Of a stretch of DNA of 64,000 nt, positions 14,375-61,567 are shown in pieces. The translations under genes were made by a program, and so were the position numbers. This DNA is from Cytophagales bacterium. GTDB taxonomy: Bacteria; Bacteroidota; Bacteroidia; Cytophagales; Cyclobacteriaceae. The stretch is taken from the NCBI GenBank assembly GCA_025359125.1, contig JANYHI010000068.1:1-64000 (forward strand), in the 5' to 3' direction. Each line of letters opens with the position of its first letter. The first letter of the stretch is position 1. Under the pieces are notes generated by a model that worked only from the letters and a program-made list of their open reading frames with translations, searched no databases and had not been told where the DNA came from.

Positions 14375-14747
14375 GTATTCGATTAGATTTATAATCGCAC
14401 TATTTTTTACTTCTGTAGTATTAGTATTGGGTGTTCATATACTTCATGCCTTGTATCGAATACCCACTCCTTCTTTTTACTTAGAAATCGTTATTTATTT
14501 TTTTTGCTCAGCACTATTTAGCTTTTACAAATTAAATACACCGAAACGGAATGAGCCATTACGCTTTGTTCAAATCTTGATGGCTTCAATCGTTCTTAAA
14601 ATCATTATCGGTTGTGTTCTCGTTTATATTTTATTCCGGTTCAACCCCAACGGGGCTAATAGTAACGCGTTTTTTTTTGTAATTAGCTATTTGTTATTTA
14701 CGGCTTGCGAAGTAACGGTGTTAACAATAAAGAAAAATAAAGAATGA
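14367..14747 (+). CDS. four-helix membrane protein, AtpI-like position
   Basis: A 126-residue protein that is nearly all membrane: hydrophobic segments around 7-26, 38-54, 66-87 and 100-118, with a positively charged KLNTPKRNEP loop and a KKNKE tail. In related genomes a protein of this kind sits between atpZ and atpB, and it is likely an ATP synthase I-like accessory protein, but there is no diagnostic motif. Its ATG lies within the end of atpZ (8-nt overlap), and its own stop overlaps the start of the penicillin acylase gene as ATGA, so all three are probably co-translated. Confidence 0.6.
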   Translation: MNKYSIRFIIALFFTSVVLVLGVHILHALYRIPTPSFYLEIVIYFFCSALFSFYKLNTPKRNEPLRFVQILMASIVLKIIIGCVLVYILFRFNPNGANSNAFFFVISYLLFTACEVTVLTIKKNKE

Positions 14748-16789
14748 AGTGGTTGAGTTTATTATTTCTGCTTGCCGCGATGCAAGTGCAATCTCAAAGT
14801 GTTGATCCTACTGGTATTGATATCATACGCGATAAATGGGGCGTTCCACATATTTATTCAAAGACAGATGCCGGAGTAGCGTATGGTTTAGCTTGGGCAA
14901 ATTCGGAAGACGATTTTAAAACTATTCAACAAGGATTCTTAGCTGGAAAAGCCATGCTTGGTTTATACTCTGGTAAATCAGGAGCAACTATTGATTACGT
15001 GGTACAACTTTTACAGTGTCGTAAAATAGTAGATCAAAGATATGAAATCGATATCGCGCCTGATTATAAGCGTGTATTGGAGGGATATGCAGCCGGCATT
15101 AATGCGTATGCGCAAAATCATGCCGATGAAATTTTAGTGAAACACCTTTTTCCTATTACACCAAAAGATATGCTCACCTATTCAGTTTTGCAGTTGGCAA
15201 TTTCCAGCGGTGTAGATAAGGCTTTGAAAGAAATAACACAGGGAACAATCGCAAAGACGCTTCCACCTCTAGGTGGCTCAAATGCGTATGCGTTCAATTC
15301 TAAAATAACAGAAGATGGAAACGTGTATCTCGCTATAAATTCACATCAGCCGCTAGAGGGGCCAGTTGCTTGGTATGAAGCGCACTTGATGAGTGATGAA
15401 GGTTGGAATATTTTGGGAGCACTTTTTCCTGGGGCGCCAAGTATTTTGCATGGATGCAATGAAAATCTCGGATGGGCGCACACCGTTAATTACCCCGATA
15501 AGTTAGATGTGTATCAACTAGAGTTAAATCCTGAAAACAAAAATCAATATAAGTTGGATGGAAAGTGGGAAGAACTGATAACTACTAAAATTAAACTTCG
15601 TGTGAAGGTGGCGGGTATTACAATTGGGGTGAAGAAGAAAATTTGGGAAAGTAAATTCGGGCCAACCATGCTTACTAAGAATGGAGCCTTTGCTATTCGT
15701 ACTGGCGCGCTAATGGAAATTCGCGCATTAGAGCAATGGTATAGAATGAACAAGTCAAAAAACTTTACGGAGTTTAAGAATGCATTAAATATGAATGCCA
15801 TCTCGGGCTACAACATCATGTATGCCGATCGGTTTGATACGATTTATTATTTGAGCAATGCGAAGCTGCCAATTCGAAATCCAAACTATAAATGGAATAC
15901 TACCTTACCGGGAAATATCAGTACCACATTGTGGACAGATTTTCATCCGATAAAAGATTTGCCGCAAGTACTGAACCCCTCTTCGGGTTATCTTTTTAAT
16001 AGCAATCACTCACCATTCAATGCAACTTCTTCCATCGATAATATAAAAACTTCTGAGTATGACCATACCATGGGATACGAAACAAATAATAACAATAGAA
16101 GTTTGCGTTTTATGGAATTGATTAGTCAGTTTCCAAAACTTAGTTATAATAATTTTAAAAGGATAAAATACGATTTACAACTTCCTATAAAGCTGGCGTA
16201 TGAAACAAATACTGACTCGCTCTTTCTGCTTTCGGCAAATGAGTTACCATCATTAAAAGATCTCATCACAACGTTAAAAGAGTGGGATCATAAAGCAGAT
16301 ATCAACAGCAAGGGTGCAGCCCTCTTTGCTATTATTTACTATCAAGTAGTAAAAGAGCAAAGCGAAGGAGCTACCTATCGATCGTTGTCAAAGAAAAAAT
16401 GTGTTGAACTATTAGAGTTCACTAAACAATATTTGATAACAAATTTCGGTAAAACAAATATTGTATTGGGCGAGTACCAGAAATTAGCGAGAGGCAATAA
16501 GCAAGTAGCACTACAGGGAATTCCAGATGTTATTTCCGCCATGCGATCAGTGCCTTTTGAAAATGGCAGAATAAAAGGAGAGCAAGGAGAATCGTATATT
16601 GAATTGGTAAAATTTACAAAGCAAGGTCCTGACATAGAAACCATCAATTGTTACGGTGCTTCTACCAATCCGGCTAGCCCACACTATGCCGATCAGATGA
16701 ATTTGTTTACCGAACAAAAAACAAAGCCGATGACTTTAAATAAAGAACAAGTCTATAAAGAAGCCAGTCGGATTTATCATCCTCAATGA
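14744..16789 (+). CDS. penicillin acylase family N-terminal nucleophile hydrolase
   Basis: A 681-residue secreted precursor (signal about 1-18, AMQVQSQS). The order is that of the penicillin acylase / acyl-homoserine-lactone acylase family: an alpha chain beginning DIIRDKWGVPHIYSKT, a spacer, then Gly178-Ser179 in LGGSNAYAF, the autocatalytic cut site that makes Ser179 the N-terminal nucleophile of the beta chain. HQPLEGP and the GWAHTVNYPD stretch follow as in the family. The enzyme hydrolyses amide bonds; whether it acts on AHLs, peptides or antibiotics cannot be read from sequence. Its ATG overlaps the upstream membrane gene stop (ATGA), an unusual partner. Confidence 0.9.
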   Translation: MKWLSLLFLLAAMQVQSQSVDPTGIDIIRDKWGVPHIYSKTDAGVAYGLAWANSEDDFKTIQQGFLAGKAMLGLYSGKSGATIDYVVQLLQCRKIVDQRYEIDIAPDYKRVLEGYAAGINAYAQNHADEILVKHLFPITPKDMLTYSVLQLAISSGVDKALKEITQGTIAKTLPPLGGSNAYAFNSKITEDGNVYLAINSHQPLEGPVAWYEAHLMSDEGWNILGALFPGAPSILHGCNENLGWAHTVNYPDKLDVYQLELNPENKNQYKLDGKWEELITTKIKLRVKVAGITIGVKKKIWESKFGPTMLTKNGAFAIRTGALMEIRALEQWYRMNKSKNFTEFKNALNMNAISGYNIMYADRFDTIYYLSNAKLPIRNPNYKWNTTLPGNISTTLWTDFHPIKDLPQVLNPSSGYLFNSNHSPFNATSSIDNIKTSEYDHTMGYETNNNNRSLRFMELISQFPKLSYNNFKRIKYDLQLPIKLAYETNTDSLFLLSANELPSLKDLITTLKEWDHKADINSKGAALFAIIYYQVVKEQSEGATYRSLSKKKCVELLEFTKQYLITNFGKTNIVLGEYQKLARGNKQVALQGIPDVISAMRSVPFENGRIKGEQGESYIELVKFTKQGPDIETINCYGASTNPASPHYADQMNLFTEQKTKPMTLNKEQVYKEASRIYHPQ

Positions 16790-16869: not shown

Positions 16870-18234
16870 ATGAGAAAGTTTATTTTGCCAATAATCATTT
16901 TTTCACTTTTATTTTCATGCGATAAGAAAAATGATTTTGAAACGAAGAATTCTAAATTATTTTTAGACTCTCTTTCGAGAGAAACATTTAATTTTTTTTG
17001 GGAACAGGCCGATTCTGTTACAGGTAATCATCCGGATAGGTGGCCCACACAATCTTTTTCAAGTATTGCCTCTACTGGTTTTGGATTGACTTCTTATTTA
17101 GTAGGAGTGGAGCGCGGATACATTACGCGCGCACAAGCCGCAGAAAGAGTATTGAAGACGTTACAATTTTTTCAGCATTCGAAAAAAGGTGCCACCCCCG
17201 AAGGCGTTACTGGGTACAAAGGTTTTTTTTACCATTTTATTGATATGAGATCGGGCGAGCGATTTCGGGAGGTAGAACTTTCAACAATTGATACCGGATT
17301 ACTGATGATGGGCGTGCTGGCATGCCAAACTTATTTTGATAAAGAAGATGAATCTGAAAAAGCAATAAGACGCTATTCAGATTCTTTATATCAGGCAGTT
17401 GACTGGCAGTGGGCGATGAATGGTAAGACTACCATGAGCATGGGTTGGAAACCCGAATCAGGATTTTTAGATGCATCATGGAAAGGCTATAACGAGGCCA
17501 TGATACTTTATATACTTGGTGCGGCTTCTCCCACACATTCCATTTCTGCTGATACGTGGAATGCGTGGACATCCACCTATCAATGGGGAACCTACTACCA
17601 ACAAGAGCACGTAAACTTTGGGCCGTTATTTGGTCATCAATATTCTCACGTGTGGATAGACTTCAGAGGAATTCAAGACTTATACATGAAGCAAAAGGGG
17701 ATTGATTATTTTGAAAATTCGCGCAGAGCTACGTATGCAAATAAATCATATTGTGTAAATAATTCTGGGGGCTATTTAGGTTACGAAGAAAATATATGGG
17801 GCTTAACAGCTTGCGATGGCCCCGAAAATAATGGTAAATTAAATGTCAACGTCAGTTTCGGTGGATATTCTGCCAGGGGCGCAGCCCAATGGTATGTAAA
17901 TGACGATGGCACGATTGCACCCACTGCAGCAGGCGGATCAATTGCTTTTGCTCCTGAAATTTGTATTCCCGCATTGCAGAATATGAAATATCAATTTAAA
18001 GATAAACTCTATGGAAGGTATGGTTTTAAAGATGCCTTCAATCTCACCATTGAACGATCGGGCGGAGTGAAAGGATGGTTTGATCAGGATTATTTAGGGA
18101 TCGATCAAGGGCCTATTTTACTCCAAACTGAAAATTATCAAACGCAATTCATTTGGAAATTGATGCGGAAAAATAAGTACATAAAAACCGGATTGAAAAA
18201 GATTGGCTTTGAAGGTGGGTGGCTGAACGGATGA
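16870..18234 (+). CDS. GH144-type (glycoamylase domain) lipoprotein, probable endo-beta-1,2-glucanase
   Basis: A 454-residue lipoprotein: signal with lipobox LLFSC (Cys17), then a glycoamylase-domain (alpha/alpha)6 barrel. Family blocks are visible: ETFNFFWEQAD, STGFGLTSYLVGVERG, ETxL-like ELSTIDTGLLMMG, SWKGYNEAMILYILGAASPTH, WGLTACDGP and the end GIDQGPILLQTENY. Bacteroidota proteins of this family (GH144) include endo-beta-1,2-glucanases that cut linear beta-1,2-glucan to sophoro-oligosaccharides. A lipoprotein anchor places it on the outer membrane. It opens the utilisation locus and overlaps the sensor gene by ATGA. It lacks the N-terminal Ig-like domain of its paralogue at 26 kb. Specificity is inferred from family and neighbours. 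Confidence 0.85.
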   Translation: MRKFILPIIIFSLLFSCDKKNDFETKNSKLFLDSLSRETFNFFWEQADSVTGNHPDRWPTQSFSSIASTGFGLTSYLVGVERGYITRAQAAERVLKTLQFFQHSKKGATPEGVTGYKGFFYHFIDMRSGERFREVELSTIDTGLLMMGVLACQTYFDKEDESEKAIRRYSDSLYQAVDWQWAMNGKTTMSMGWKPESGFLDASWKGYNEAMILYILGAASPTHSISADTWNAWTSTYQWGTYYQQEHVNFGPLFGHQYSHVWIDFRGIQDLYMKQKGIDYFENSRRATYANKSYCVNNSGGYLGYEENIWGLTACDGPENNGKLNVNVSFGGYSARGAAQWYVNDDGTIAPTAAGGSIAFAPEICIPALQNMKYQFKDKLYGRYGFKDAFNLTIERSGGVKGWFDQDYLGIDQGPILLQTENYQTQFIWKLMRKNKYIKTGLKKIGFEGGWLNG

Positions 18235-20162
18235 AATGGATCAAAAATAATTTTCTTTTTTTTATACTATTGGGTGGTGAGTTAGCCAATGCTCAACAAC
18301 CCGTTGTGGTGCTCGATAGTGTGGAAGAGCGAAACTTCATGCCGAACGAGTTAATGTACTATCAAGATGTAACTAATAAAATTTCTTTCCTTCACGTATC
18401 CTCTCAAGAATTCTCCAATCGATTTCAACAACACACCGATTATCGTAACAAGGATTTTATTCCGAATGCTTCGTATTGGGTGCGATTGCCCATCCGCCAC
18501 AAGTCAGACACAGAGAAGGCGTGGCTTCTTGAATTTTATGATCAAACCATCGATAAAATAGACGCCTATATTCCACAACCCGATGGAAGTTATCAGCTCA
18601 TCCAACTGGGCGATCAACAACCATTTACGCATCGATTATTCAGACATAAGAATTTTGAGTTGATGCTTAATATGAAGCACGATACGGTGATGCTCTATTA
18701 TTTTAGAATTCAATCTCACGAGTTTGCCGATATACGGATTGCATTTCGGTCTACCAATCGGTTTATCTATTATTCGCTGAACGAATATTTTCTGTTTGGC
18801 ACCTTCTACGGAATGATTTTGATTATCGCTTTATACAATTTTCTAACCTTTTTAGCGATACGAGAAATAAAATATATCTATTACATTTTCTACATTCTTA
18901 GCGTTGCACTTTATGCATTGAGTTTAGATGGAATTGGGTTTCAATATCTGTGGTCAGGCTTACCGGCATTAAATACCTATGCCACGGGTGTCTCTCTTTA
19001 TTTAGTAATTTTTTGGTCCTTAGTTTTTACAAAACGATTTTTAAGTTTAGCTGCGAAAGCTCCAGTATTAAATACAATCTTTAAGTGGGTAATTATTCTT
19101 CGAACGCTTGTCTTTTTGGTTGCACTCTTTTTAGTGCCCTCTCTCTTTAGCCAACGAATAATTGAAATTGCTCCTTTGTCTCTTATTTTCTATTCCGCCA
19201 TTCGCGTGTGGAGAAATGGCTATCAGCCTGCTAGGTTTTTCGTAATTGCTTATGGAATTTTATTTTCAGGGTTTTTTCTCCGGGCAATGGTTTATTTCAA
19301 CCTTTTGCCTTTTACCATTCTCTCGCATTACAGTCTTCACTTAAGTTTTGTTTTGGAAATGCTTTTTCTTACGCTCGCCTTAGGCGATCGTATTCGAATT
19401 TTAAAAGATAACCGCGATAGAGCACTGCGCAAAATAATTCACCAGCATGAGGCTAATATGAAGTTGAAAGACAAAGTGAATAGAGAGCTAGAGTTGCGGG
19501 TGAAGGAGCGAACCATAGAATTAGATTCTAACAATTTAGCTCTTGAAGAGAGCAACCAAAAATTAGTGAAGCAGGCTACTGAGATAAACCAAATTAACTC
19601 ATTATTGGATTTAGATAATTGGAAGCTGAAGAACAGAGTGAAAGAAGTATTGAATGAAATGTTGATGGAGAAAACCATGAACTATGCGGAATTCAAAACA
19701 CTTTATCAAGATACTCTCAGCGCCTATCGCTTTTTAGAAGAAATGAAGTGGGTTAATGGATTTAGATGCCCTAAGTGTAGAAATGAAAAGTATTTTGACG
19801 GAGCAGTTAAATTTTCGCGTAGATGTACCAAGTGTGGGTACAACGAATCGATTACAGCTTTCACCATTTTTCAAGGAATCAAGTTTCCGATTGAGAAAGC
19901 CTTCTACATTGCTTACTTAACGGTGGTTGGTAAAAAAGAGGGCACTCTAGTAGCCTTCTCTAAACAATTAGAGCTTGGACTTAACACGGTTTGGGCTTTT
20001 CGATCAAAAGTTCAAAGCAGAATGAAGGAAATGGAGGAATCTGGGGTTAGACCTACTGCATCGAGGTGGGAAGAAATAATACTTTCGGCTGACTACCATC
20101 CGAAAGCTAAGGAGTCAAATAGGAGATTTAGTTCAATTAACCAGAAGTCACCCCAGCCTTAA
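18231..20162 (+). CDS. 7TM-DISM membrane receptor fused to IS1595-transposase-like zinc ribbon and HTH
   Basis: A 643-residue protein. A signal peptide (LFFILLGGELANAQ) is followed by a periplasmic DISMED2-like sensor (about 30-170), a 7TM-DISM block of seven helices (about 187-392), a coiled coil (about 395-490), and a C-terminal module. That module has a zinc ribbon, Cys513-x2-Cys516 and Cys532-x2-Cys535, then SITAFTIFQGIKFPIEKAFY and a helix-turn-helix-like stretch (about 573-600, LGLNTVWAFRSKVQSRM). The ribbon plus helices match the N-terminal DNA-binding end of IS1595-family transposases; the DDE catalytic domain is absent. No kinase or cyclase domain is present. ATG 18231 overlaps the GH144 stop. 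I infer a membrane-bound transcription factor for the adjacent locus. Confidence 0.8.
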   Translation: MKWIKNNFLFFILLGGELANAQQPVVVLDSVEERNFMPNELMYYQDVTNKISFLHVSSQEFSNRFQQHTDYRNKDFIPNASYWVRLPIRHKSDTEKAWLLEFYDQTIDKIDAYIPQPDGSYQLIQLGDQQPFTHRLFRHKNFELMLNMKHDTVMLYYFRIQSHEFADIRIAFRSTNRFIYYSLNEYFLFGTFYGMILIIALYNFLTFLAIREIKYIYYIFYILSVALYALSLDGIGFQYLWSGLPALNTYATGVSLYLVIFWSLVFTKRFLSLAAKAPVLNTIFKWVIILRTLVFLVALFLVPSLFSQRIIEIAPLSLIFYSAIRVWRNGYQPARFFVIAYGILFSGFFLRAMVYFNLLPFTILSHYSLHLSFVLEMLFLTLALGDRIRILKDNRDRALRKIIHQHEANMKLKDKVNRELELRVKERTIELDSNNLALEESNQKLVKQATEINQINSLLDLDNWKLKNRVKEVLNEMLMEKTMNYAEFKTLYQDTLSAYRFLEEMKWVNGFRCPKCRNEKYFDGAVKFSRRCTKCGYNESITAFTIFQGIKFPIEKAFYIAYLTVVGKKEGTLVAFSKQLELGLNTVWAFRSKVQSRMKEMEESGVRPTASRWEEIILSADYHPKAKESNRRFSSINQKSPQP

Positions 20163-20181: not shown

Positions 20182-20233
20182 GATGTTTTTATCAGAGGAA
20201 AACATCTGGCTGAACAAGTTAAAAATAGCCAGA
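20182..20233. promoter_or_regulatory. two adjacent inverted repeats upstream of susC
   Basis: GATGTTTT (20182-20189) pairs with AAAACATC (20199-20206), loop 9 nt. Overlapping its end, TCTGGCT (20205-20211) pairs with AGCCAGA (20227-20233), loop 15 nt. They lie between the sensor stop and the susC start, about 150-200 nt before the latter. They could be operator, leader hairpins or a weak terminator; no T-run follows either. Confidence 0.45.
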
Positions 20234-20385
20234 AAACGGTTGTAATCAATGTTTTTATTCGGTGAAAAAGAACCTTTACTGTGAACCTATAAGATTGCCA
20301 TTTATTCAAGTAATTCTTAAAAAAAGATGTAATGGGTTTTGTATTTTATAAATTCACCTACATAGATTTTAACTATTCTAAGGGC

Positions 20386-23300
20386 ATGAGCAGAAAAAGC
20401 ATCTGTAAAGTATTGTTAATAACCGTTTTAGGTCTTTTTTTCTTGGAGTCTAACGCTCAGAATAGGAATATTTCAGGTAAGGTAACATCTATTGAAGATG
20501 GTAAGAGCGTTGAATTGCCTGGTGTAAATGTTACGATCCTCGGAACAAGCAAAGGTACCACCACCGATGTAGAGGGCAATTTTAGTCTTGAATTAGCTCC
20601 AGCTGAAACATCTATCTCCTTTTCCTTTATAGGATATAAGACCCAAACAATTGCCATTACAAATCAGACATTCTTAAGTATCACACTTCAAACAGATACA
20701 GAACAGCTGGAAGAAGTGGTGGTAGTTGGTTATGGAGTGCAGAAGAAATCAGATATAACCGGAGCAACTGCAAGTGTAAAAGGCGATGAGCTGTATAGGC
20801 AGCCAGTTCTTACAGCCTCTCAAGCGCTGCAAGGTAAAGTAGCTGGCATACAAATTATAAGTAGTGGGCAACCGGGCTCTTCGCCTCAAATTAGGGTAAG
20901 GGGAATAGGAACAACACTGGGTGGTACCACTTCGCTTTATGTGGTAGATGGAGTGCTCACAGATGATATTTCAAACATAAACACGGCCGATATAGTGGAT
21001 ATGAATATTTTGAAAGATGCTTCTGCTGCCGCGATTTATGGATCGCGCGGTGCGAATGGAGTAATTATCATTACTACTCGTAAGGGAAAGGAAGGGAAGC
21101 TGGTTATTAATTACAACAATAGTGTCGGATTTAGGCAGGCATCTAATCTAGTTGAAATGGCCAATAGTGCAGAGTATAGTAACTATGTGCAGGCAGCTAC
21201 TGGCTTTGCCCCGCCATCGTCTAGTTATGATACAGATTGGTATAAAACAATTTTAAGAAATGCCGTTCAACAAAATCATAATCTTTCCTTTTCGGCAGGC
21301 ACAAATAAGTCTACCTATTTATTTAATGTGGGGTACTTGACAGATGAGGGTATTGTTATCGACAATTCATTCAAACGCTTTACTATGCGCTTGAACAACG
21401 ATTATAAAATTACAGATCAGGTAAAATTCGGGTTTCAAGCTTCGTATGCAAATAGTGCTAATCAAAATGGTTTTAATAATTTGGATATAGATCCGTTTGG
21501 TAATGTAGGCAGTGTGTATAATGATGCCTACAGAGCTGCGCCTTTTATACCCAGTATCGTAAATAGTAAATATGGAAATACCTCTACCTACCAAAATGTT
21601 GGCAATCCATTATTAGATATTAAAAATAACAGTGTAAAAGTAAAAGAAGACAGACTGCAAGGCTCCACCTATTTAGAGGTGAAGCCAATTAGTTGGCTCA
21701 CACTTAAAACCTCTTTCGGTGTAGACGTTCGTAATTCTTTGAACAGAGCCTACAACTATCAATTCGAGAGCGATGAAACCACGTTTATAATAGCTGGAGG
21801 TAATCAGCGAAATCCGTTGAGCGGACTCAACGTAAAAAATACCCAATCTACCCGCTGGGTATGGGACAATACGTTTACGATCTCTAAAAAAATAAATGAT
21901 CACGACTTTACGTTTTTAGGAGGAACTACCGCTGAAGAATTTAATCTTACTTCTTTTTCGGCATTTAGAAAAGATGTTCCGGCCGACCCTAGCTTGTGGT
22001 ACATAGGTGTGGGCGATGCAAATACTTCTCAAAACGGAGGAGGAGGAGATGCTTGGACAAGAAATTCTTATTTAGCTAGACTCAACTATTCCTATGCAGG
22101 GAAATACCTTTTGACAGCTACTGTGCGCAGAGATGGTAGCTCGCGCTTGCCGAGCAAAAACCGTTGGCAAAATTATCCGTCCGTTGGTTTGGCATGGGTA
22201 GCCTCTAAGGAATCTTTCATGCAAAATCAAAATATTTTTGATTTGCTAAAAGTGAGAGCTTCCTACGGGAAAGTAGGAAATGACCAAATTCCATCAGACT
22301 CGTACATTAATACAGTAGCAATTAACATCCCCTATCCATTTACAGGCAATAGCGCACCTGCTACCAATGGCGCTCAGATTAATCAATTTAAAGATCCCAA
22401 TATTACGTGGGAGGTAACGGAAGAATATGACCTAGCGGTTGAATTTGGAATTTTAAATTCAAAACTGTCGGGAGAAATAAATTATTATGATAAGAAGGTA
22501 AACAACGCCTTAATTTTTAAGCCAGTTTTTTCTACTATCTATGACCTCGATCACCTGGTGTTAACAAATGCAGCAATCATTCAAAATAAAGGATTAGAAG
22601 TAGTATTGAATTGGAAAGATCGCCTCAGCGATGATTTCTCTTACACCATAAGTGCAAACGCAACCTTTAATAATAATAACGTGGTTGCATTAAATGGTGG
22701 GCTGCCAGTGTCTGGTGGATTTGTAGGTTCTCAAGGACCTGTCACCAATACAAATGTTGGCCAATCGGTCGGAAGCTTTTATGTGCTCAAAACCACAGGT
22801 GTTTTTAATTCTGATGCAGAGGCTGCAAACTATGTTGACCAAAACGGAAAACAAATTCAACCAACTGCTAAGGCGGGCGATTTTAAATACCAAGATGTAA
22901 ATGGTGATGGCGTTATCGATACGAAAGATCGTCAATATATGGGCTCGTACCAACCCATAGCTTATTTTGGTTTAAATCTGGGAGCCACCTACAAACGCTG
23001 GGATTTTAGTTTAAGCATTTATGGAAACATTGGCAACAAAGTTTATAACGGCAAAAAGGGTGTTCGCATATTAGGAACGGATAATATTGAGAAGAGTATG
23101 GTGTACAATCGCTGGACAGCAGGCGGCAAATCACAAACCGAACCCGCAGCCAATACTGGCAATTTGCCCGCTTCAGATTATTTTGTGGAGTCTGGTTCCT
23201 TTGTGCGAATCAATAATCTAACAATTGGTTATACTCTTTCGCCCGATGTCTTAACCCGCTTACACCTTTCGAGCTGCAGAGTGTTTTTAACTTCTCAGAA

Positions 23301-23430
23301 TCTTTTTACCCTTAAAGCATACAGTGGCTTTACCTCTGAGTTGCCTGGCGATGTAATTAATTCTGGAATTGAATTATCAGCTTACCCAACTACTAGAACA
23401 GTTGCCGTAGGCGTAAATATTGGTTTTTAA
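20386..23430 (+). CDS. SusC-like TonB-dependent outer-membrane glycan transporter
   Basis: A 1014-residue SusC homologue. A signal peptide (LLITVLGLFFLESNAQ) is followed by a carboxypeptidase-D-regulatory-like domain (GKVTSIEDGKSVELPGVNV), a TonB-box-like EEVVVVGYG, the plug domain with SPQIRVRGIGT and KDASAAAIYGSRGANGV, and a 22-strand barrel ending in aromatic VGVNIGF. It imports oligosaccharides across the outer membrane with energy from TonB/ExbBD and a SusD lid. I prefer ATG 20386, which gives a proper signal peptide, over the ATG 54 nt upstream. The susD gene follows after 11 nt. No anti-sigma-interacting STN domain is present, so regulation is not of the FecIR type. Confidence 0.95.
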   Translation: MSRKSICKVLLITVLGLFFLESNAQNRNISGKVTSIEDGKSVELPGVNVTILGTSKGTTTDVEGNFSLELAPAETSISFSFIGYKTQTIAITNQTFLSITLQTDTEQLEEVVVVGYGVQKKSDITGATASVKGDELYRQPVLTASQALQGKVAGIQIISSGQPGSSPQIRVRGIGTTLGGTTSLYVVDGVLTDDISNINTADIVDMNILKDASAAAIYGSRGANGVIIITTRKGKEGKLVINYNNSVGFRQASNLVEMANSAEYSNYVQAATGFAPPSSSYDTDWYKTILRNAVQQNHNLSFSAGTNKSTYLFNVGYLTDEGIVIDNSFKRFTMRLNNDYKITDQVKFGFQASYANSANQNGFNNLDIDPFGNVGSVYNDAYRAAPFIPSIVNSKYGNTSTYQNVGNPLLDIKNNSVKVKEDRLQGSTYLEVKPISWLTLKTSFGVDVRNSLNRAYNYQFESDETTFIIAGGNQRNPLSGLNVKNTQSTRWVWDNTFTISKKINDHDFTFLGGTTAEEFNLTSFSAFRKDVPADPSLWYIGVGDANTSQNGGGGDAWTRNSYLARLNYSYAGKYLLTATVRRDGSSRLPSKNRWQNYPSVGLAWVASKESFMQNQNIFDLLKVRASYGKVGNDQIPSDSYINTVAINIPYPFTGNSAPATNGAQINQFKDPNITWEVTEEYDLAVEFGILNSKLSGEINYYDKKVNNALIFKPVFSTIYDLDHLVLTNAAIIQNKGLEVVLNWKDRLSDDFSYTISANATFNNNNVVALNGGLPVSGGFVGSQGPVTNTNVGQSVGSFYVLKTTGVFNSDAEAANYVDQNGKQIQPTAKAGDFKYQDVNGDGVIDTKDRQYMGSYQPIAYFGLNLGATYKRWDFSLSIYGNIGNKVYNGKKGVRILGTDNIEKSMVYNRWTAGGKSQTEPAANTGNLPASDYFVESGSFVRINNLTIGYTLSPDVLTRLHLSSCRVFLTSQNLFTLKAYSGFTSELPGDVINSGIELSAYPTTRTVAVGVNIGF

Positions 23431-23441
23431 AACAAAATTAA

Positions 23442-24956
23442 ATGAAACGGAGCGTTAACAGAATTGCTGTTTTATTAGTGACCCTAAGCATTGCCATCGC
23501 TTGCAGCGAAGATTTTTTGAATGTGAAAGTGCAGGGCGGTGTTACCCTAGATACCGATCCGGCCTTAGCACAAAAATTGGTAACGGGCGTATACAATAGT
23601 CTTTTGCAAGGCGATTGTTTTGGCAACGGAGACGTTCACGGATGGGGATTGATTTCCGTAACCTGTACTATTTCTGATGATGCAGACAAAGGAAGTACGG
23701 CTGGAGATCAGGCAGTGCCTATTGGCGACTTAGACAACTTCACCACCACTTCTACCAATAAGTTTTGTGAAACTATGTGGAGCGGACATTTTAATGGAAT
23801 TGGTGCAGCCAACCAAGCGCTAGCAGCCTTGGTAAAATCTTCCAGTATTCCACCCGCACAACTCAAGCAATATCAAGCAGAAGTAAAATTTATTAGAGGA
23901 TACTTATACTTTAATATGGTGCGCATGTTTGGCGATGTCCCACTCGTGCTACGTGTACCCAAAGATTTGGAAGATGCTGCCAGTGATCTCTCTCTCATTA
24001 CACGAGCAGCCTCTTCATTAGTGTATGATAGCATTGCCAGAGACTTGCAATTTGCGATAGACAATCTTCCTCTAAAAGCACAATCTCAAGCCGGCCATGT
24101 TAGCAAGGGTACTGCGCAAACTCTATTGGCAAAAGTTTACATGTACAGGCAGCAATGGAACAAGGTGCAACTACTGACAGATGCAGTGATTGCCTCTGGG
24201 CAATATTCTTTGGTGCCTGATTATGCAACTATTTGGCGACAAGTGGGTGACAACAATGTAGAATCAATTTTTGAAATTGAAACCGGAAAATTTAACAATA
24301 GTAATCTAGCGATTGATAATTACATTGTTTCCCAAGGTGTGCGTGTAGGGGGCAAAGGTGGCTGGGATGATTTGGGCTATGGATTCAATAATCCTACTCC
24401 TGATTTAATTAACACCTATGAAGCAGGCGATAAAAGAAAAGATGCCACCATTTTATTCATTGATAATTCGGGCACACATAAAGGCACTATTCTTTGGGAT
24501 GGTAAGAGAATACCAAGTTCAGATTCTGTTCAAAATCTATATTATAACTATAAAGCATATACTAGCGCAACTAAAGAAGAATTTGCCAATAAGCTCGACA
24601 AAAATAGACCTAAAAATGTCCGCATTTTAAGATATGCCGAAGTGTTGTTAATAAATGCGGAAGCAGCCTTCCATACGGGCGGAGATGTACTCACTAATTT
24701 AAACAAGGTGCGCCAACGTGCAGGGCTTGCACCAAAGGGGAGTGCCACACTTGATGACATTTGGAAAGAGCGCAGATTGGAATTTGCGATGGAACACGAT
24801 CGCTTCTGGGATTTGGTGCGGCAAGGCCGCGCGGGGCAAGTGATGCGCTCCTCTGGTAAAACTAATTTTGTAGATGGTAAGCACGAACTATTACCCGTGC
24901 CCAATTCTCAAATTCTATTAAGCGGAGGAAAACTTTTGCAAAATAATGGATACTAA
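23442..24956 (+). CDS. SusD/RagB family glycan-binding lipoprotein
   Basis: A 504-residue partner of the SusC protein. The signal ends in the lipobox AIAC (Cys21) and is followed by SEDFLNVKVQGG, the typical SusD start. The middle contains TPR-like helices (FIRGYLYFNMVRMFGDVPLV) and the C-terminus has the conserved KERRLEFAMEHDRFWDLVRQG. SusD proteins cap the SusC barrel and bind the incoming glycan. It lies 11 nt after susC in the same operon. The ligand is inferred to be beta-1,2-glucan fragments from the GH144 and GH3 neighbours. Confidence 0.95.
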   Translation: MKRSVNRIAVLLVTLSIAIACSEDFLNVKVQGGVTLDTDPALAQKLVTGVYNSLLQGDCFGNGDVHGWGLISVTCTISDDADKGSTAGDQAVPIGDLDNFTTTSTNKFCETMWSGHFNGIGAANQALAALVKSSSIPPAQLKQYQAEVKFIRGYLYFNMVRMFGDVPLVLRVPKDLEDAASDLSLITRAASSLVYDSIARDLQFAIDNLPLKAQSQAGHVSKGTAQTLLAKVYMYRQQWNKVQLLTDAVIASGQYSLVPDYATIWRQVGDNNVESIFEIETGKFNNSNLAIDNYIVSQGVRVGGKGGWDDLGYGFNNPTPDLINTYEAGDKRKDATILFIDNSGTHKGTILWDGKRIPSSDSVQNLYYNYKAYTSATKEEFANKLDKNRPKNVRILRYAEVLLINAEAAFHTGGDVLTNLNKVRQRAGLAPKGSATLDDIWKERRLEFAMEHDRFWDLVRQGRAGQVMRSSGKTNFVDGKHELLPVPNSQILLSGGKLLQNNGY

Positions 24957-25055: not shown

Positions 25056-25952
25056 ATGAAACGAACACTAAATTTTTTAACAGGAGGCGCTATTGTAGTA
25101 GCGCTATTCACTTTTGCAGGATGTAGCAAAGATGATGCGAAACTTCCGGCAATTGATGGATACAACAACTCGAATGAAGTAGCCTCTACCAATCTTTTAG
25201 CGAATTGGACTTTTGATGACACTAATAATGAGCGGATTTCAAGTACCCCGCCAACTAAAACCTATGGAACCGTTGGGTTTACCACTGGACAAATTGGTAA
25301 GGCATTACAATTAACGAAAGGCGCTTTAGTTTATCCTGCTATTACAAAAATAAATACCGCTAATGCATTAAATAACTTTACCATTAGTTTATGGGTTAAT
25401 GTTAAAGGTAGAAAAGGAGGTGATGGTGGTTTTACTGCATTTTTTGGTCTAATACCAACGGGGGTTACTGATGTTTGGGGTGATGCAATGGCCTTAGCAG
25501 AAACAGGACGCCATCTGCCAACATCAGATACATTGGAACTAAAGAATATTTTGAATACTCATCCAGCGGGGGGTGGCAATAGTCTTCAAGATAATATTGC
25601 GCAATTAAATTTAGGATCAGGATTAGGTAAATATTTCTTAGGAGCTAATAAATGGTCACATTATGTTCTTACTTGGAATGCATCTACTCATAAATTTAAA
25701 ATTTATGGTAATGGTGTTTCAGTAGGTGCTTATGATGATCGGGGAACCACTGCGGAGTTAATTATGGCACCTCCTGTACAAGCAGTATTTGGTAGTTTAG
25801 CTTCTAGCGATATTGGATTTACTGGTGCACCTGCACAACAACCTTGGAATCCATGGGCTACTGCATCAATTGATGATGTGAGAGTTTATAATACTGTTTT
25901 GGCCGATAAGGATATTACAGCATTATTTAATTTAGGAACCGCAGGCAGATAA
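25056..25952 (+). CDS. LamG (concanavalin-like) surface lipoprotein
   Basis: A 298-residue lipoprotein: lipobox FAGC (Cys23), a short linker, then one laminin-G/concanavalin-type jelly-roll (about 48-292), recognised from LLANWTFDD, GKALQLTKG, NNFTISLWVN, HYVLTWNAS, and the final SIDDVRVYNTVL. It has no obvious hydrolase residues, so it most likely binds glycan, standing in the position where SusE/SusF-like surface binding proteins are usually encoded. It follows susD by about 100 nt and precedes a clear terminator, so the first transcript of the locus probably ends here. Confidence 0.83.
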   Translation: MKRTLNFLTGGAIVVALFTFAGCSKDDAKLPAIDGYNNSNEVASTNLLANWTFDDTNNERISSTPPTKTYGTVGFTTGQIGKALQLTKGALVYPAITKINTANALNNFTISLWVNVKGRKGGDGGFTAFFGLIPTGVTDVWGDAMALAETGRHLPTSDTLELKNILNTHPAGGGNSLQDNIAQLNLGSGLGKYFLGANKWSHYVLTWNASTHKFKIYGNGVSVGAYDDRGTTAELIMAPPVQAVFGSLASSDIGFTGAPAQQPWNPWATASIDDVRVYNTVLADKDITALFNLGTAGR

Positions 25953-26019: not shown

Positions 26020-27657
26020 ATGACAAATAAATACTTACTCTTACTAGTTTTTCAAGCAAGTATTTTTTGTTTTTCTTGTACCTCCACCAACCCAACACCT
26101 AAAAATCAAGATCCGTTTGCCTTAAATAACTTTTCACTAGATAACCGGCCCACTTCCTATACCTATCCGAGCACCTCTATAAATCCCATTTTGAAGATTA
26201 GATTTTCAGAACCTGTAGATAAGTCAACCGCAATGTCTGGAATTACTTTATCCAACTCCTTTGGAGATATTCCCTTGCAATTTTCTTACAGTAATCAGGA
26301 CAGCACGGTTGTCATTCAAACCGTTAGCCCATTAAACTATTTAAGTATTTATTTTTTTACTGTTTCAAAATATTTTAAATCGGCTTCTCAAAAAGCATTT
26401 GATTCAAATACCGTTATTAAAATCATAACTCAAATTGATCCTGCACCAAAATTTCCAACCATCACAGATGATGAGCTTCTTACCAAAACTCAACAAAAGA
26501 CATTTCAATATTTTTATGACTTTGCCCACCCGGCCAGTGGCATGGCGCGCGAGCGAAATACTTCTGGTAATACGGTAACTACTGGGGGCACCGGCTTCGG
26601 CATTATGGCCTTAGTGGTAGGCATGGAGCGTAATTTTATTACACGCCAACAAGGCGTTCAACAAATCAATAAGATTGTAACTTTTCTGCAAAAGGCCGAT
26701 CGCTTTCATGGAGCGTGGTCGCATTGGGTAGATGGCAATACCGGCAAAGTAATTCCCTTCAGCACCAAAGATAACGGTGGCGATTTAGTGGAGACCTCCT
26801 TTTTAGTTCAAGGCTTGCTCACCGCGCGTCAATATTTAAACTCAACCGATACGGTCGGAAATAATCTGATCAATAGAATCAGCACCTTATGGCAAACCGT
26901 TGAGTGGGACTGGTATAGAAAAAACAATGAACAAGTGTTGTACTGGCATTGGTCGCCCAACTACAATTGGGATATGAACTTTCCGCTGTACGGATATTTT
27001 GAGGAACAAATCACGTATGTGTTAGCGGCCTCATCGCCCACCCACAGTATACCGAAGAGTGTATACACAAATGGGTTTGCAAAAAATGGGGCCATTAAAA
27101 CAGGCAACACCTACTACGGAATAAAATTACCACTGGGCACACCCAGCCCACTTTTTTGGGTGCAATACTCTTACCTCGGTTTAAACCCGCACTTTACGGA
27201 TGACTATGTCAACTATTGGGAACAAAATGTAAATGCATCAAAGATTAATTATGCGTATTGTGTAGCAAATCCTAAAAAGTATCCCAACTATAGTGCTGAT
27301 TGTTGGGGCTTAACAGCTAGTGATAATCAAGTAGGGTATAATGCACATTCGCCCGAAAATGATTTGGGAGTAATTACACCAACGGCTGCATTATCTTCTT
27401 TTCCTTACACACCGGTAGAATCGATGCGCGCGCTCAAGTTTTTTTATTATACTTTAGGCGATAAGATGTGGGGCACATATGGTTTCTATGATGCTTTTAA
27501 CATTTCAGAAGCCTGGACGGCTACTTCTTATTTGGCAATCGATCAGGGCCCGATTGTGGTGATGATTGAAAATTATAGAACAGGCCTTTTGTGGAATTTA
27601 TTTATGTCGGCACCCGAAGTGCAGGCAGGCACGGTGAAGTTGGGATTTGTTTATTGA
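26020..27657 (+). CDS. GH144-type lipoprotein with N-terminal Ig-like domain
   Basis: A 545-residue lipoprotein: lipobox FSC (Cys19-20 region), an Ig-like Big_5/SbsA-type domain (about 38-140, ILKIRFSEPVDKSTAMSGI), then the glycoamylase-type barrel with TQQKTFQYFYDFAHP, TGGTGFGIMALVVGMERNF, VETSFLVQGLL, ASSPTHSIPKSVY, WGLTASDNQ and AIDQGPIVVMIENYRTGLLW. It is the paralogue of the protein at 16.9 kb, but with an added domain and a longer barrel segment. Such two-enzyme sets usually divide surface cutting and periplasmic trimming; here both are lipoproteins. The likely reaction is endo-hydrolysis of beta-1,2-glucan, from family knowledge and the GH3 neighbour. Confidence 0.85.
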   Translation: MTNKYLLLLVFQASIFCFSCTSTNPTPKNQDPFALNNFSLDNRPTSYTYPSTSINPILKIRFSEPVDKSTAMSGITLSNSFGDIPLQFSYSNQDSTVVIQTVSPLNYLSIYFFTVSKYFKSASQKAFDSNTVIKIITQIDPAPKFPTITDDELLTKTQQKTFQYFYDFAHPASGMARERNTSGNTVTTGGTGFGIMALVVGMERNFITRQQGVQQINKIVTFLQKADRFHGAWSHWVDGNTGKVIPFSTKDNGGDLVETSFLVQGLLTARQYLNSTDTVGNNLINRISTLWQTVEWDWYRKNNEQVLYWHWSPNYNWDMNFPLYGYFEEQITYVLAASSPTHSIPKSVYTNGFAKNGAIKTGNTYYGIKLPLGTPSPLFWVQYSYLGLNPHFTDDYVNYWEQNVNASKINYAYCVANPKKYPNYSADCWGLTASDNQVGYNAHSPENDLGVITPTAALSSFPYTPVESMRALKFFYYTLGDKMWGTYGFYDAFNISEAWTATSYLAIDQGPIVVMIENYRTGLLWNLFMSAPEVQAGTVKLGFVY

Positions 27658-27742: not shown

Positions 27743-30028
27743 ATGCACACCCGAATTCTTTCCATCATCATTTTATTTTTCCTAATCGCGTCTTGCTCCA
27801 AGCCTTCTAAGCCAACCGATCGCATGACTTTTGTTGTCGACTCGATTATGAACCAACTTACGTTGGATGAAAAAATCGGACAACTAAATTTACCTTCATC
27901 GGGCGATATGATTACCGGAGAAACTGGTAGCTCTGACATTGCAAAAAAAATTGAGAAGGGTATGGTGGGCGGTTTGTTCAATATCAAATCAGTTGCTAAG
28001 ATCAAAGAAGTGCAAAAGATAGCAGTTGAAAAAAGTCGGACAAAAATTCCTCTCATTTTTGGGATGGATGTAATTCATGGTTACGAAAGTGTATTTCCGA
28101 TTCCGCTAGGGTTAAGCTGCTCTTGGGATATGAAGTTGATTGAGCAAAGTGCACGCATTGCCGCACAAGAAGCAAGTGCCGATGGAATTAATTGGACGTA
28201 TTCTCCTATGGTAGATATTTCTCGCGATGCACGCTGGGGAAGAATTTCGGAAGGCAGTGGAGAAGATCCCTATCTCGGTTCTGAAATTGCCAGTGCTATG
28301 GTGAGAGGTTATCAGGGCAACGATCTTACTGCAAATAACACGATCATGTCTTGCGTAAAGCATTACGCGTTGTATGGTGCTGCCGAATCGGGTCGTGATT
28401 ACAACACCGTTGATATGAGTAAGCATCGAATGTACAATGAATATCTACCTCCCTATAAAGCAGCTATTGATGCCGGGGCGGGAAGTATCATGGCTTCATT
28501 TAATGAGATTGATGCCGTGCCGGCCACTGCGAATAGATGGTTGCTCACAGATGTGCTACGAAATGAATGGGGCTTTAAAGGATTTGTAGTTTCAGATTAT
28601 ACTGGTGTGAGTGAGATGGTGAATCATGGATACGGAGATCTTCAGTATGTTTCTGCAAAGGCATTAGAAGCAGGCTTAGATATGGATATGGTAAGCGAAG
28701 GATTATTAACTACGCTGACCAAATCTGTAAAAGAAGGAAAGATATCAGAAAAGCAAATTAATGAGGCGTGCAGGCGAATATTGGAAGCAAAATATAAGTT
28801 AGGATTATTTAAAGATCCGTATAAATATTGTGACGATGTTCGAGCGAAGTCAGAAGTGTTTACTGCCGCTAATAGAGCAACAGCACGAAGTACTGCGGCA
28901 CAAAGTTTTGTATTGTTGAAAAACGAAGGGCAAATTCTTCCCATAAAAAAATCAAGTACTATTGCTTTGATAGGACCATTGGCAGATTCAAAAGAAAATA
29001 TGACTGGCACCTGGAGCGTGGCCGCTCGCTTTGCTGAATCTATTTCAGTACGCGATGGATTACAAAAAGCTGTTGGAGCAAATGTAAAAATCTTATATGC
29101 AAAGGGATCTAATTTAGATGAAGATGAGGCTATTGAAGAACGAGCAACTATGTTTGGCAAAACGTTACATCGCGATAAAAGGTCAGCAGAAGAGATGCGC
29201 AACGAAGCCATTAAGATTGCAAAAAGTGCAGATGTAATTGTAGCCGCAGTTGGCGAAGCGGCAGAAATGAGTGGCGAAGCATCGAGCCGAGTGAATATTC
29301 AAATACCGGAAGCTCAAAAGGATTTATTAAAAGCATTACTAAAAACAGGAAAACCGGTGGTGCTTGTATTATTTACTGGTCGCCCACTCATTTTAAAATG
29401 GGAGTCTGAAAATATTCCAGCCATTTTAAATGTTTGGTTTGGCGGCAGCGAAGCAGGCGATGCGATTGCAGATGTATTGTTTGGCGATGTAAATCCTTCA
29501 GGGAAGTTGACAACCACTTTTCCACAGCATGTGGGTCAGTTGCCTATGTATTATGCTCAAAAAAACACGGGCCGCCCATTAGGTAACGATAAGTGGTTTC
29601 AAAAATTCAGATCTAATTACTTAGATGTTTCAAACGAACCCGTTTATCCATTTGGATTTGGGTTAAGTTATACTAATTTCTCTTATGGAGATATTAAATT
29701 GAGTAAGACGGAAATGTCTGCGGAAGATTCCGTCAGCGTATCGATCGATGTTACTAATAACGGATCCTATGAGGGAGCAGAAGTGGTACAGCTTTACATT
29801 CGTGATTTAGTAGGTTCTGTTACGCGCCCTGTAAAAGAATTGAAGGGCTTTCAAAAAATTAATTTGAAAGCCGGAGAAACCAAGCATGTGAGTTTTATGA
29901 TTTTAAACAAAACACTCTCGTTTTATAGACAAGACTTAACCTTTGGCAGCGAGCCCGGAAAATTCCTGTTTATGATAGGAGGAAACTCAAGAGATGTGAA
30001 GCAGCTAGAATTTACATTGAGGCCATAG
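27743..30028 (+). CDS. GH3 beta-glucosidase, periplasmic lipoprotein (BglX-type)
   Basis: A 761-residue GH3 enzyme. The signal has the lipobox IASC (Cys16-18 region). GH3 N-terminal barrel: DEKIGQLN, FGMDVIHGYESVFPIPLG, SPMVDISRDARWGRISEG, and the nucleophile Asp285 in VVSDYTG. The C-terminal sandwich has AVGEAAEMSGEASSR (candidate acid/base Glu near 511), then a fibronectin-III-like domain (FGFGLSYTNF onward). GH3 enzymes of this shape remove terminal glucose; a Bacteroides member encoded with GH144-type genes acts on beta-1,2-gluco-oligosaccharides. It would convert sophoro-oligosaccharides to glucose. It is the last gene of the locus and converges on gapN with 7 nt between stops. Confidence 0.93.
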   Translation: MHTRILSIIILFFLIASCSKPSKPTDRMTFVVDSIMNQLTLDEKIGQLNLPSSGDMITGETGSSDIAKKIEKGMVGGLFNIKSVAKIKEVQKIAVEKSRTKIPLIFGMDVIHGYESVFPIPLGLSCSWDMKLIEQSARIAAQEASADGINWTYSPMVDISRDARWGRISEGSGEDPYLGSEIASAMVRGYQGNDLTANNTIMSCVKHYALYGAAESGRDYNTVDMSKHRMYNEYLPPYKAAIDAGAGSIMASFNEIDAVPATANRWLLTDVLRNEWGFKGFVVSDYTGVSEMVNHGYGDLQYVSAKALEAGLDMDMVSEGLLTTLTKSVKEGKISEKQINEACRRILEAKYKLGLFKDPYKYCDDVRAKSEVFTAANRATARSTAAQSFVLLKNEGQILPIKKSSTIALIGPLADSKENMTGTWSVAARFAESISVRDGLQKAVGANVKILYAKGSNLDEDEAIEERATMFGKTLHRDKRSAEEMRNEAIKIAKSADVIVAAVGEAAEMSGEASSRVNIQIPEAQKDLLKALLKTGKPVVLVLFTGRPLILKWESENIPAILNVWFGGSEAGDAIADVLFGDVNPSGKLTTTFPQHVGQLPMYYAQKNTGRPLGNDKWFQKFRSNYLDVSNEPVYPFGFGLSYTNFSYGDIKLSKTEMSAEDSVSVSIDVTNNGSYEGAEVVQLYIRDLVGSVTRPVKELKGFQKINLKAGETKHVSFMILNKTLSFYRQDLTFGSEPGKFLFMIGGNSRDVKQLEFTLRP

Positions 30029-59494: not shown

Positions 59495-61567
59495 ATGCAG
59501 AGCCTTCAATTTGAAACCTCACCTTACTACATACTACTATGTATTGCATTGGGTGTGGGCTATGCATTTGTTCTGTACCGCACCAATCATGTGTGGAGTA
59601 AACTAGTGAATCAAATTCTTTTTGGGTTGAGGGCAGCGATGGTAGCTCTTCTAGCTTTTTTATTGTTAGGGCCTATTTTAAAATTCACTGACAATCTATT
59701 TGAAAAACCATCGGTTGTTTTTTTACTGGATAACTCCACTTCAGTAAAAGAATCGATTGACTCTGTTGGTAGAAAAAAAATCATCAACGATCTTGAACAG
59801 ACGAGTCAAAAAATCAAAAGTCAGGGGTATGATGTTTTGTATAAAGATTTGGCAAATAATAAAATTCAACAAATTCAATTCCTAAATCAAACTTCAGATT
59901 TAAGTGCCGGTATTAAGGCTATTACAACCGAATACGAAGGGAAAAATTTAGGTGCGATCATTTTAGTTTCTGACGGAATCTATAATAATGGAACCTCTCC
60001 ACTCTATACACCCACGCGCGTTCCTATTTATACGGTAGGCATTGGCGATACTACCGATCGTACAGATTTGATATTGAAGAATGTATCTTATAATAAAATT
60101 ACCTATCAAGGAAATAAATTCCCGATTCAGGCTGAGGTTGCAGTAGTTGGCTTGCCCGATCAGCAAGTCGTTGTTTCTGTTTTGAAGAACGGAAAATTAA
60201 TTTTGAAAGAAGAACAAAATTCAAAATCTAAGCTAGTAGCTGATTTTAGTTTTTTAATAGAAGCTACCGAAAAGGGACTGCAACGATTTGATATTGTTGT
60301 TGATCCGGTGCGATCAGAAGTTTCAACAAAGAATAATCGCACTAGTATTTTTATTGACGTAGTAGAAGGCAAAAAGAAAATTTTACTGATTGCCCCCGCA
60401 CCGCATCCTGACATTAAGGCCATCCGATCGGTGATAGAGAAAAATTCTAACTATGAATTCATTTTACACATTCCTACAATAGCCGAGGCGCCTCCGGAAT
60501 TCTTAAAACTAGGAGTAGCCGATTTGGTAATTTTTCATCAGGCATCAGACAGAAGTAATAGAACAGCACCACTGTATCAACGCTTTAAGAATTCAGCTTC
60601 ATTATTTCTCATGTTAGGCACTCAATCGAATCTTCGCAGTTTGGTACAAAATCAAATTCCATTAACTTTTGAAAATCTAGGCCAATGGGATGAGGTAACA
60701 CCCGTTATCAATACTGCATTTCATGATTTTAATTTCCCTGAAAATGCAAATGGTGTGATCGCAAAATATCCACCAATAGAAGTTCCATTTGGGAAATTCT
60801 CTTATCCCAACACAGCAAACATATTAATGCACCAGCGAATTGGCTCAGTAACTACAGATCGCCCGTTATTATTAAGTTGGGATGACGACAAACACAAAAT
60901 TGCAGTATTAGTTGGTGAAGGTATTTGGAAATGGAGATTAGGAGAATTTTCTGATACTGAAAAGACCGAAGTATTTGATGACATTTTTTTGAAACTATTT
61001 CAATACTTAAGCACAATGAACGATAAACGAAAATTTAGAAGTTTTCCGCTGAAAAGTGAATTTGCAAATGCCACCACAGCAGTTATCGAAAGTCAGGTGT
61101 ATAATAGTTTGTTTGAACCTATTTATGGAAATACCATTTCAGTTGAGTTGAAAGATGAGCAAGGTAAAATTACACGATACGAGTACGTAACTAGCCCCGG
61201 AGGCAGCCGCTACCAGATTGGCGGATTGAAAGAAGGTGCTTATCAATTCAAATCATCAACAGAGGTAGATGGGAAAAGAGAAGAAGTGCGCGGACAGTTT
61301 TTAGTAACTGCTCAAAATATTGAATCACAAAATTTAACTGCCGATTTTGGTTTACTCAGGAAGCTATCTGCAACAACGGACGGAAAATTTTATAGTGCTA
61401 ACCAAATGTCAGAACTTTCTGCTCATTTCAAAGAGGAGAAACCGCAAGCATTAATTCATACCGAAGAATCATTCAATTCGCTTATCAATCTAAAATGGTT
61501 TTTCTTTTTGCTGCTTACTTTAATAAGTATCGAATGGTTTTTGAGAAAATATCTTGGTTCTTATTGA
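59495..61567 (+). CDS. von Willebrand factor A-like membrane protein, unknown function
   Basis: A 690-residue protein with two N-terminal membrane helices (about 10-28 and 45-65), a large periplasmic part and one C-terminal helix (WFFFLLLTLISIEWFL). The vWA-like fold begins at about 75: VVFLLDNSTSV provides a D-x-S-x-S MIDAS, and IILVSDGIYNNGT follows. Such proteins in Bacteroidota are relatives of BatA/BatB and of aerotolerance-type membrane proteins, but the remaining length (200-640) with Ig-like sections is not assigned. Convergent with the SOD gene with 2 nt between stops. Confidence 0.75.
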   Translation: MQSLQFETSPYYILLCIALGVGYAFVLYRTNHVWSKLVNQILFGLRAAMVALLAFLLLGPILKFTDNLFEKPSVVFLLDNSTSVKESIDSVGRKKIINDLEQTSQKIKSQGYDVLYKDLANNKIQQIQFLNQTSDLSAGIKAITTEYEGKNLGAIILVSDGIYNNGTSPLYTPTRVPIYTVGIGDTTDRTDLILKNVSYNKITYQGNKFPIQAEVAVVGLPDQQVVVSVLKNGKLILKEEQNSKSKLVADFSFLIEATEKGLQRFDIVVDPVRSEVSTKNNRTSIFIDVVEGKKKILLIAPAPHPDIKAIRSVIEKNSNYEFILHIPTIAEAPPEFLKLGVADLVIFHQASDRSNRTAPLYQRFKNSASLFLMLGTQSNLRSLVQNQIPLTFENLGQWDEVTPVINTAFHDFNFPENANGVIAKYPPIEVPFGKFSYPNTANILMHQRIGSVTTDRPLLLSWDDDKHKIAVLVGEGIWKWRLGEFSDTEKTEVFDDIFLKLFQYLSTMNDKRKFRSFPLKSEFANATTAVIESQVYNSLFEPIYGNTISVELKDEQGKITRYEYVTSPGGSRYQIGGLKEGAYQFKSSTEVDGKREEVRGQFLVTAQNIESQNLTADFGLLRKLSATTDGKFYSANQMSELSAHFKEEKPQALIHTEESFNSLINLKWFFFLLLTLISIEWFLRKYLGSY

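Follow-up and report, generated by a model that had tools for sequence, protein, structure and literature searches.

The stretch of DNA analysed here (henceforth the window) comprises 64,000 nucleotides, positions 1 to 64,000 of contig JANYHI010000068.1 from a Cytophagales bacterium of the family Cyclobacteriaceae (assembly GCA_025359125.1). It carries on its plus strand, at 18231–20162 (ATG at 18231, stop codon at 20160–20162), a gene for a receptor of 643 amino acids (aa) in which a periplasmic 7TMR-DISMED2 domain, a 7TMR-DISM seven-helix membrane domain and a long helix are followed by a zinc ribbon and helix-turn-helix (HTH) of the type found in IS1595-family transposases. The gene lies between a GH144-type gene and a susC–susD pair, and two similar sequence boxes occupy the gap between its end and susC.

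Pfam places the 7TMR-DISMED2 domain at residues 40–170 (18348–18740; 91.2 bits, cut-off 22), the membrane domain 7TMR-DISM_7TM at residues 185–387 (18783–19391; 144.5 bits, cut-off 29), with its helices present in the AlphaFold model, and Zn_ribbon_IS1595 (PF12760) at residues 497–537 (19719–19841; 31.8 bits, cut-off 25.4), including Cys513, Cys516, Cys532 and Cys535. Between membrane domain and zinc ribbon runs a long helical linker (residues 388–480, 19392–19670), coiled-coil- or S-helix-like, modelled as a helix and marked by conserved ERT and LDLDNWKLKN stretches. The HTH part (residues 554–603, 19890–20039) is seen as helices in the models and in a sub-threshold match, in which positions 3–56 of the 215 of the NCBIfam IS1595 model align to residues 551–603 (21 bits, under the cut-off of 75). 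Because the Pfam zinc ribbon and then the start of the NCBIfam model match in this order, the two parts are collinear with the transposase N-terminus. The protein ends shortly past the HTH, and a Pfam scan at E≤1 returned these three domains only, with no DDE nuclease (PF12762), kinase or receiver, so that sensor, membrane and predicted DNA-binding domains are joined in one chain. Searching the whole genome with PF12760 gave a single match, the receptor gene itself (37.2 bits). The DISMED2 domain is likely to bind a ligand, the four cysteines are predicted to bind zinc, and by homology the zinc ribbon/HTH module would bind DNA. A preliminary description, made from the sequence alone, had recognised a 7TM-DISM receptor ending in such a module with no nuclease behind it; the order of the Pfam and NCBIfam matches bears this out, the zinc-ribbon model search suggested there yields the PF12760 match, and the cysteines and other motifs lie where it had put them.

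The full-length AlphaFold model (mean predicted local distance difference test score, pLDDT, of 79) shows a beta-rich periplasmic domain, membrane helices and a long helix leading to the zinc ribbon; a single helix spans residues 362–480, with pLDDT below 50 at 452–469. The modelled periplasmic domain resembles that of RetS (3jyb, E 2.2e-5). A phmmer search of the receptor against the PDB gave two matches only, to the kinetochore subunit NKP2 over the helical linker (E 0.07–0.08). Signalling helices are described in PMC1592074 as joining sensors to HTH domains at low frequency, and the S-helix-like appearance of the linker would be in line with that account.

Spread and origin of the putative DNA-binding module

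The architecture is not unique to the window, as relatives occur across the family and the order. Of 196 genomes from the same family, 117 contain a match to the 155-aa C-terminal stretch, and in at least 94 of those 117 it lies in open frames of at least 590 aa, the size of the receptor; fetched matches in frames of about 300 aa resemble transposases. Of 291 genomes from the order, 101 match a profile (A2) at E≤1e-30, covering 13 family codes with up to 13 matches per genome, although transposases may be among these, since only part of the matches were listed with frame lengths (139 of 150 listed were in frames of at least 590 aa, 11 in shorter ones). At the level of the phylum and with E≤0.001, matches occur in 55 of 395 genomes, and many of them are in frames of transposase size. 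Twelve further 7TM relatives, chosen by hand, all have both DISM domains above the Pfam cut-offs; the zinc ribbon is above its cut-off in six, below in five and not listed in one (L260), the module of which nevertheless scores 178 bits with profile A2.

Conservation extends to the residues predicted to hold zinc. Of 101 receptors aligned, all keep Cys513 and Cys516, and 100 keep Cys532 and 100 Cys535, where a gap accounts for the exception; all four are invariant in an alignment of 23 homologues. In this second set, picked by C-terminal similarity, mean column conservation was 0.62 for DISMED2, 0.787 for the 7TM domain, 0.80 for the linker, 0.793 for the zinc ribbon and 0.71 for the HTH.

The same module also occurs on other sensors. 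In three proteins (L247, L248 and L249, of 997, 1068 and 1011 aa) Reg_prop propellers and a Y_Y_Y domain replace the 7TM part, and the module stands at the C-terminus, in the place of a kinase and receiver; it scores 161–186 bits with profile A2, and the zinc ribbon is above the Pfam cut-off in two of the three. One of them, L248, directly precedes susC and susD. The module is therefore present on two unrelated sensor types. In the tree these proteins group among the 7TM receptors, their exact position being unsupported.

A careful tree of 82 rows (153 columns, unrooted; five rows that were long or odd, including two receptors, were left out, as were 20 further receptors) splits 51 fusion proteins from 31 transposase or stand-alone copies by one branch (support 97/91; 96% of bootstrap trees), and a quick tree of 87 rows gives the same split with support 78. 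Nearest to the fusion proteins is a stand-alone protein of 137 aa (L167); apart from it, the nearest outside relatives are IS1595-family transposases. A transposase from the same family of genomes (L185) matches DDE_Tnp_IS1595 above the cut-off (71.9 bits). The one-sided grouping of the fusion proteins favours a single capture, and capture once followed by spread would be the simplest reading of what is, as an unrooted tree of this length, no proof.

Two other sets of IS1595-like proteins came to light. Genome G353 holds non-identical paralogues of 304–332 aa (L165, L200, L201 and L203; nine copies among the matches listed) in which the nuclease motifs look lost (VEVDE is replaced) and of which the one scanned reaches 21.9 bits with the DDE model, below the cut-off; they may represent another domesticated transposase family. 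Genomes G220, G411 and G504 each carry a stand-alone IS1595-like zinc ribbon/HTH protein of 154–155 aa (48–52 bits by profile), with neighbouring genes of 125, 210, 118, 161 and 197 aa recurring in all three.

Linkage to susC and the paired promoter boxes

The conserved neighbour of the receptor is the downstream susC and not the upstream GH144 gene. We surveyed the best 80 of 173 loci, several of them truncated by contig ends, counting as homologues those blastp matches to window proteins with coverage of half or more of the window protein. In 66 loci a same-strand susC comes next; 12 have another gene there, and in two the stretch ends. The position of susC is kept even though the susC is often distant (31–39% identity to that of the window). 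Anywhere in the 80 loci, homologues were found of susC in 71, susD in 61, GH144 in 64 and GH3 in 28, and the genome survey proposed in the preliminary description thus finds the architecture across the order and linked to susC, the gene before which that description had placed it. It had also noted the coupling to the GH144-type gene (16870–18234, plus strand), which overlaps the receptor start by ATGA (TGA at 18232–18234). This coupling is real in the window and not general: a GH144 homologue lies directly upstream in 17 of the 80 loci (15 on the same strand, two on the opposite one).

The gap between the receptor and the susC-type TonB-dependent transporter gene (20332–23430, plus strand; Pfam Plug and CarbopepD_reg_2; probable start, judged from the sequence, 20386) contains two boxes on the plus strand. 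Box 1, TGTTTTTATCAGAGGAAA, lies at 20184–20201 (16.6 bits) and starts 66 bp before box 2, which covers 20235–20267 with a conserved 5' part and the core TGTTTTTATTCGGTGAAA at 20250–20267 (22.8 bits), both scores coming from a position weight matrix (PWM) made without the window. Relative to the probable susC start, box 1 begins about 202 bp and the core of box 2 about 136 bp upstream. We took the stretches from receptor to next same-strand gene in the window and 78 other loci, and of these 79 retained the 73 of 120–500 bp. They have a box in common, TGTTTTT followed by an A/T-rich part, G and AAA, mostly with AACGnTTGAAATC ahead.

An 18-bp PWM was derived from the 49 clear copies of this box. 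With each one's own sequence excluded, 38 of the 49 had a second-best site at −66 or −65 and on the same strand, against a maximum of four at any spacing in 20 shuffled sets. When gaps were scored with their own locus excluded and near relatives retained, 61 of 72 reached 10 bits or more, compared with five of 199 other intergenic stretches and two of 34 stretches upstream of the receptor. The best control (L124, 21.8 bits) lies directly before a susC that is separated from the receptor by two genes, so that its box pair, 65 bp apart, stays with susC rather than with the receptor. The 33-mer of box 2 occurs once in the 3.68-Mb genome at up to three mismatches (control none). In 196 genomes the exact pair pattern gave 39 matches, 19 of which, the window's included, have a receptor no more than about 1.7 kb away; the remaining 20 are about the number predicted by the reversed control, which gave 15 in total. 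The conserved part of the locus is the susC promoter, not the GH144 coupling.

Some further matches deserve mention. Box-like sites upstream of the receptor itself were seen at L081 (9820–9991) and L118 (1227–1680), with 12.3 and 13.6 bits, and possibly reflect autoregulation. A match at position 59716 of the window (17.6 bits) was taken as chance, as it falls inside an open reading frame (59495–61567).

Other receptor groups have other boxes; the expected counts flatter the words concerned, because these were chosen by eye from the same gaps. Among the 14 loci of group B and its outliers, pairs of CGTAT[CT]A lie 76–81 bp apart in 10, with a single copy in two and none in two. The motif is present in all 10 retained group-B gaps (0.4 expected), a count that excludes four outliers (L204, and L205, L206 and L208, which were kept as their own set), as against two of 73 gaps in the window's group; the outlier set has TGTTTTT in three of three. 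Divergent promoters of group C, where 14 of 20 loci could be used (six being not divergent or too long), have AAGCGCAA on the target strand in six of 14 (0.1 expected), and where two AAGCG repeats are present the distance between them is 68 or about 120 bp. In another group of GH144 type, comprising 10 loci, TGTTTTT is found in five (1.1 expected). The recognition part of the HTH varies by group as well (NTVW-, QSTCW- and RETCW-like), and residues and boxes may covary between receptor groups.

Downstream of susC, all on the plus strand, follow susD (23442–24956; Pfam SusD_RagB), a gene for a LamG/ConA-like lectin protein (25056–25952; Laminin_G_3), a homologue of GH144 endo-beta-1,2-glucanases (26020–27657; PF10091; 496 bits to the endo-beta-1,2-glucanase 5gzh and, above that, 503 bits to 4gl3, named a putative glucoamylase) and a GH3 beta-glucosidase homologue (27743–30028; 1171 bits to 3u48 and 1092 bits to 5xxl in the PDB). 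The product of the GH144-type gene upstream of the receptor also belongs to PF10091 and scores 506 bits to 8xul, XCC2207, which we read as XcSGL, treated as a GH144 beta-1,2-glucanase in PMC12102758. As each of the two PF10091 proteins has solved GH144-type enzymes among its matches, in a locus that combines susCD with GH144 and GH3 homologues, beta-1,2-glucan is the likely substrate, and its oligosaccharides would be the likely signal.

Other substrates are suggested by the neighbours of more distant receptors, which in the family genomes are mostly beside susC/susD. Pfam scans of ten proteins beside such receptors found GH30 at L136 (twice, with SusE) and L135, GH10, GH43 and GH115 at L149, and GH43 at L141; GH144 profile matches lie beside L137, L140, L142, L145, L148, L150, L152 and L259. 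By receptor group, GH30 genes occur in the one group-B locus scanned and xylan-type genes in the two scanned from group C. Ten neighbours scanned at receptors from the order's other families yielded a GH81 protein at L254 and outer-membrane efflux genes at L261 and L263. The efflux genes and other neighbours with no clear tie to glycans show that the receptor class is not confined to glycan loci; the preliminary description's class for polysaccharide loci needs correcting here, two relatives adjoining an efflux gene.

Proposed mechanism, alternatives and known systems

We consider it probable that the receptor is a membrane-anchored one-component regulator that activates the susC–susD–GH144–GH3 genes, presumably as an operon, through the paired boxes. 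The periplasmic DISMED2 domain would have a piece of glycan as its ligand, in the window most likely a beta-1,2-gluco-oligosaccharide, and the change would be relayed to the cytoplasm through the 7TM bundle and the long helical linker. There the zinc ribbon/HTH, derived from an IS1595 transposase, would bind the two direct-repeat boxes 65–66 bp apart ahead of susC and so turn on the genes behind them. A broader proposal, to which we give somewhat better than even chances, is that one capture of an IS1595 DNA-binding end in the Bacteroidota gave rise to an order-wide class of signal receptors that touch DNA at paired boxes about 65–81 bp apart. The module would then be an interchangeable output, moved to propeller sensors of the type found in hybrid two-component systems (HTCS) and given new targets as recognition residues and boxes changed in parallel, and the near-fixed long spacing suggests two receptor dimers clamping a promoter loop to the membrane.

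Several observations weigh against the proposed regulator. Eleven of the 72 gaps score below 10 bits, four of the 14 loci of group B and its outliers lack a full CGTAT pair, and eight of the 14 group-C gaps lack AAGCGCAA. The 17-bp core of box 2 alone is unspecific, with 103 places in the genome at up to three mismatches and 69 for the reversed control, and the strict pair stands beside just 19 receptors and is absent from most receptor genomes, including G094, G163 and G183 of the same genus. Descent of the box from transposon ends was considered and is unsupported: on eight candidate IS1595-type ends, taken from a simple inverted-repeat alignment, the 18-bp PWM gave p 0.15–0.77 against shuffles. 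Neighbours at L250, L251, L260 and L264, a histidine kinase among them, have no evident glycan link. The structure prediction proposed earlier for the C-terminus gave a confident model (mean pLDDT 82 for the isolated 156-aa module), for which Foldseek found nothing in the PDB at E≤0.001 (best 1.1), leaving this line neutral overall.

CAAACG/CGTTTG, which we take to resemble LacI-type operators, occurs in 47 of 73 receptor–susC gaps where 10.9 are expected, and because of this enrichment another regulator may act on these promoters. Were such a regulator, for example of the LacI type, the one that binds the boxes, the zinc ribbon/HTH would serve in protein interaction or dimerisation, and signalling by the receptor would be indirect. 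The gaps without a recognised box fit this view as well, whereas the variation of the box with the receptor group, the 33-bp element that is unique in the genome and adjoins the receptor, and the near-complete retention of the zinc cysteines speak for direct binding; we regard the alternative as unlikely. Still less probable is that the receptor represses, or has its main target elsewhere, with the element in the gap being a 5' leader RNA element of susC. The distance of the boxes from the susC start means that they may be transcribed, and regulation could run in either direction, but a direct-repeat pair with nearly fixed spacing, and the repeats of other boxes in the divergent promoters of group C, speak against this reading. 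A fusion devoid of function, in which a transposase fragment entered a receptor gene by chance or is decaying there, is hardly credible: transposases of the same family do occur in related genomes (L185), but the zinc ribbon is as conserved as the 7TM domain among homologues that were picked by C-terminal similarity, and the relatives, which fall to one side of a branch, are spread through the order with several in a genome.

That a membrane receptor touches DNA is known in kind. ToxR and CadC combine a periplasmic sensor and a cytoplasmic DNA-binding domain in one chain, with a single membrane helix and an N-terminal winged HTH, where the window receptor has seven helices and a C-terminal zinc ribbon/HTH. 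Known 7TMR-DISM receptors (PF07695 and PF07696) share the periplasmic DISMED2, seven-helix domain and helical linker, but their outputs are kinase, GGDEF, cyclase or PP2C domains instead of a transposase-derived module. IS1595-family transposases have the zinc ribbon and HTH in the same order; the receptor lacks their DDE nuclease, and its boxes are unlike the ends of related elements. HTCS are likewise receptors beside susCD in polysaccharide loci of Bacteroidota, and their Reg_prop/Y_Y_Y sensors carry the receptor's module in three relatives, whereas Pfam at E≤1 lists no histidine kinase or response regulator in the receptor. The ChiS family also has a C-terminal DNA-binding domain on sensory-domain proteins, with 7TMR-DISM among the sensory domains listed; it is proteobacterial and has another DNA-binding fold, a cryptic HTH (PMC8092284). 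We found no description of the receptor's architecture in the literature searched, which covers subscription papers and preprints thinly, and the features that look new are an output derived from a transposase, the spread of that output, its occurrence on two types of sensor, and the paired boxes.

The interpretation in the preliminary description is supported, and more strongly than was claimed there. To our knowledge, little work has been done on the regulators that bacteria of this order use at polysaccharide loci, and the receptors form a candidate class for which binding sites and target genes can be predicted, as can, in some groups, likely substrates (beta-1,2-glucan here; those of GH30-type and xylan-type genes beside relatives), which makes the class testable at once. 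If the proposal is true, it would be a bacterial case of a transposase DNA-binding domain that a large receptor family has come to use as its output. A role as an anti-phage defence gene was considered and rejected, PADLOC giving no match at E≤0.01. Two genes upstream of the receptor, at 14744–16789 of the window, lies a gene of the penicillin-amidase family.

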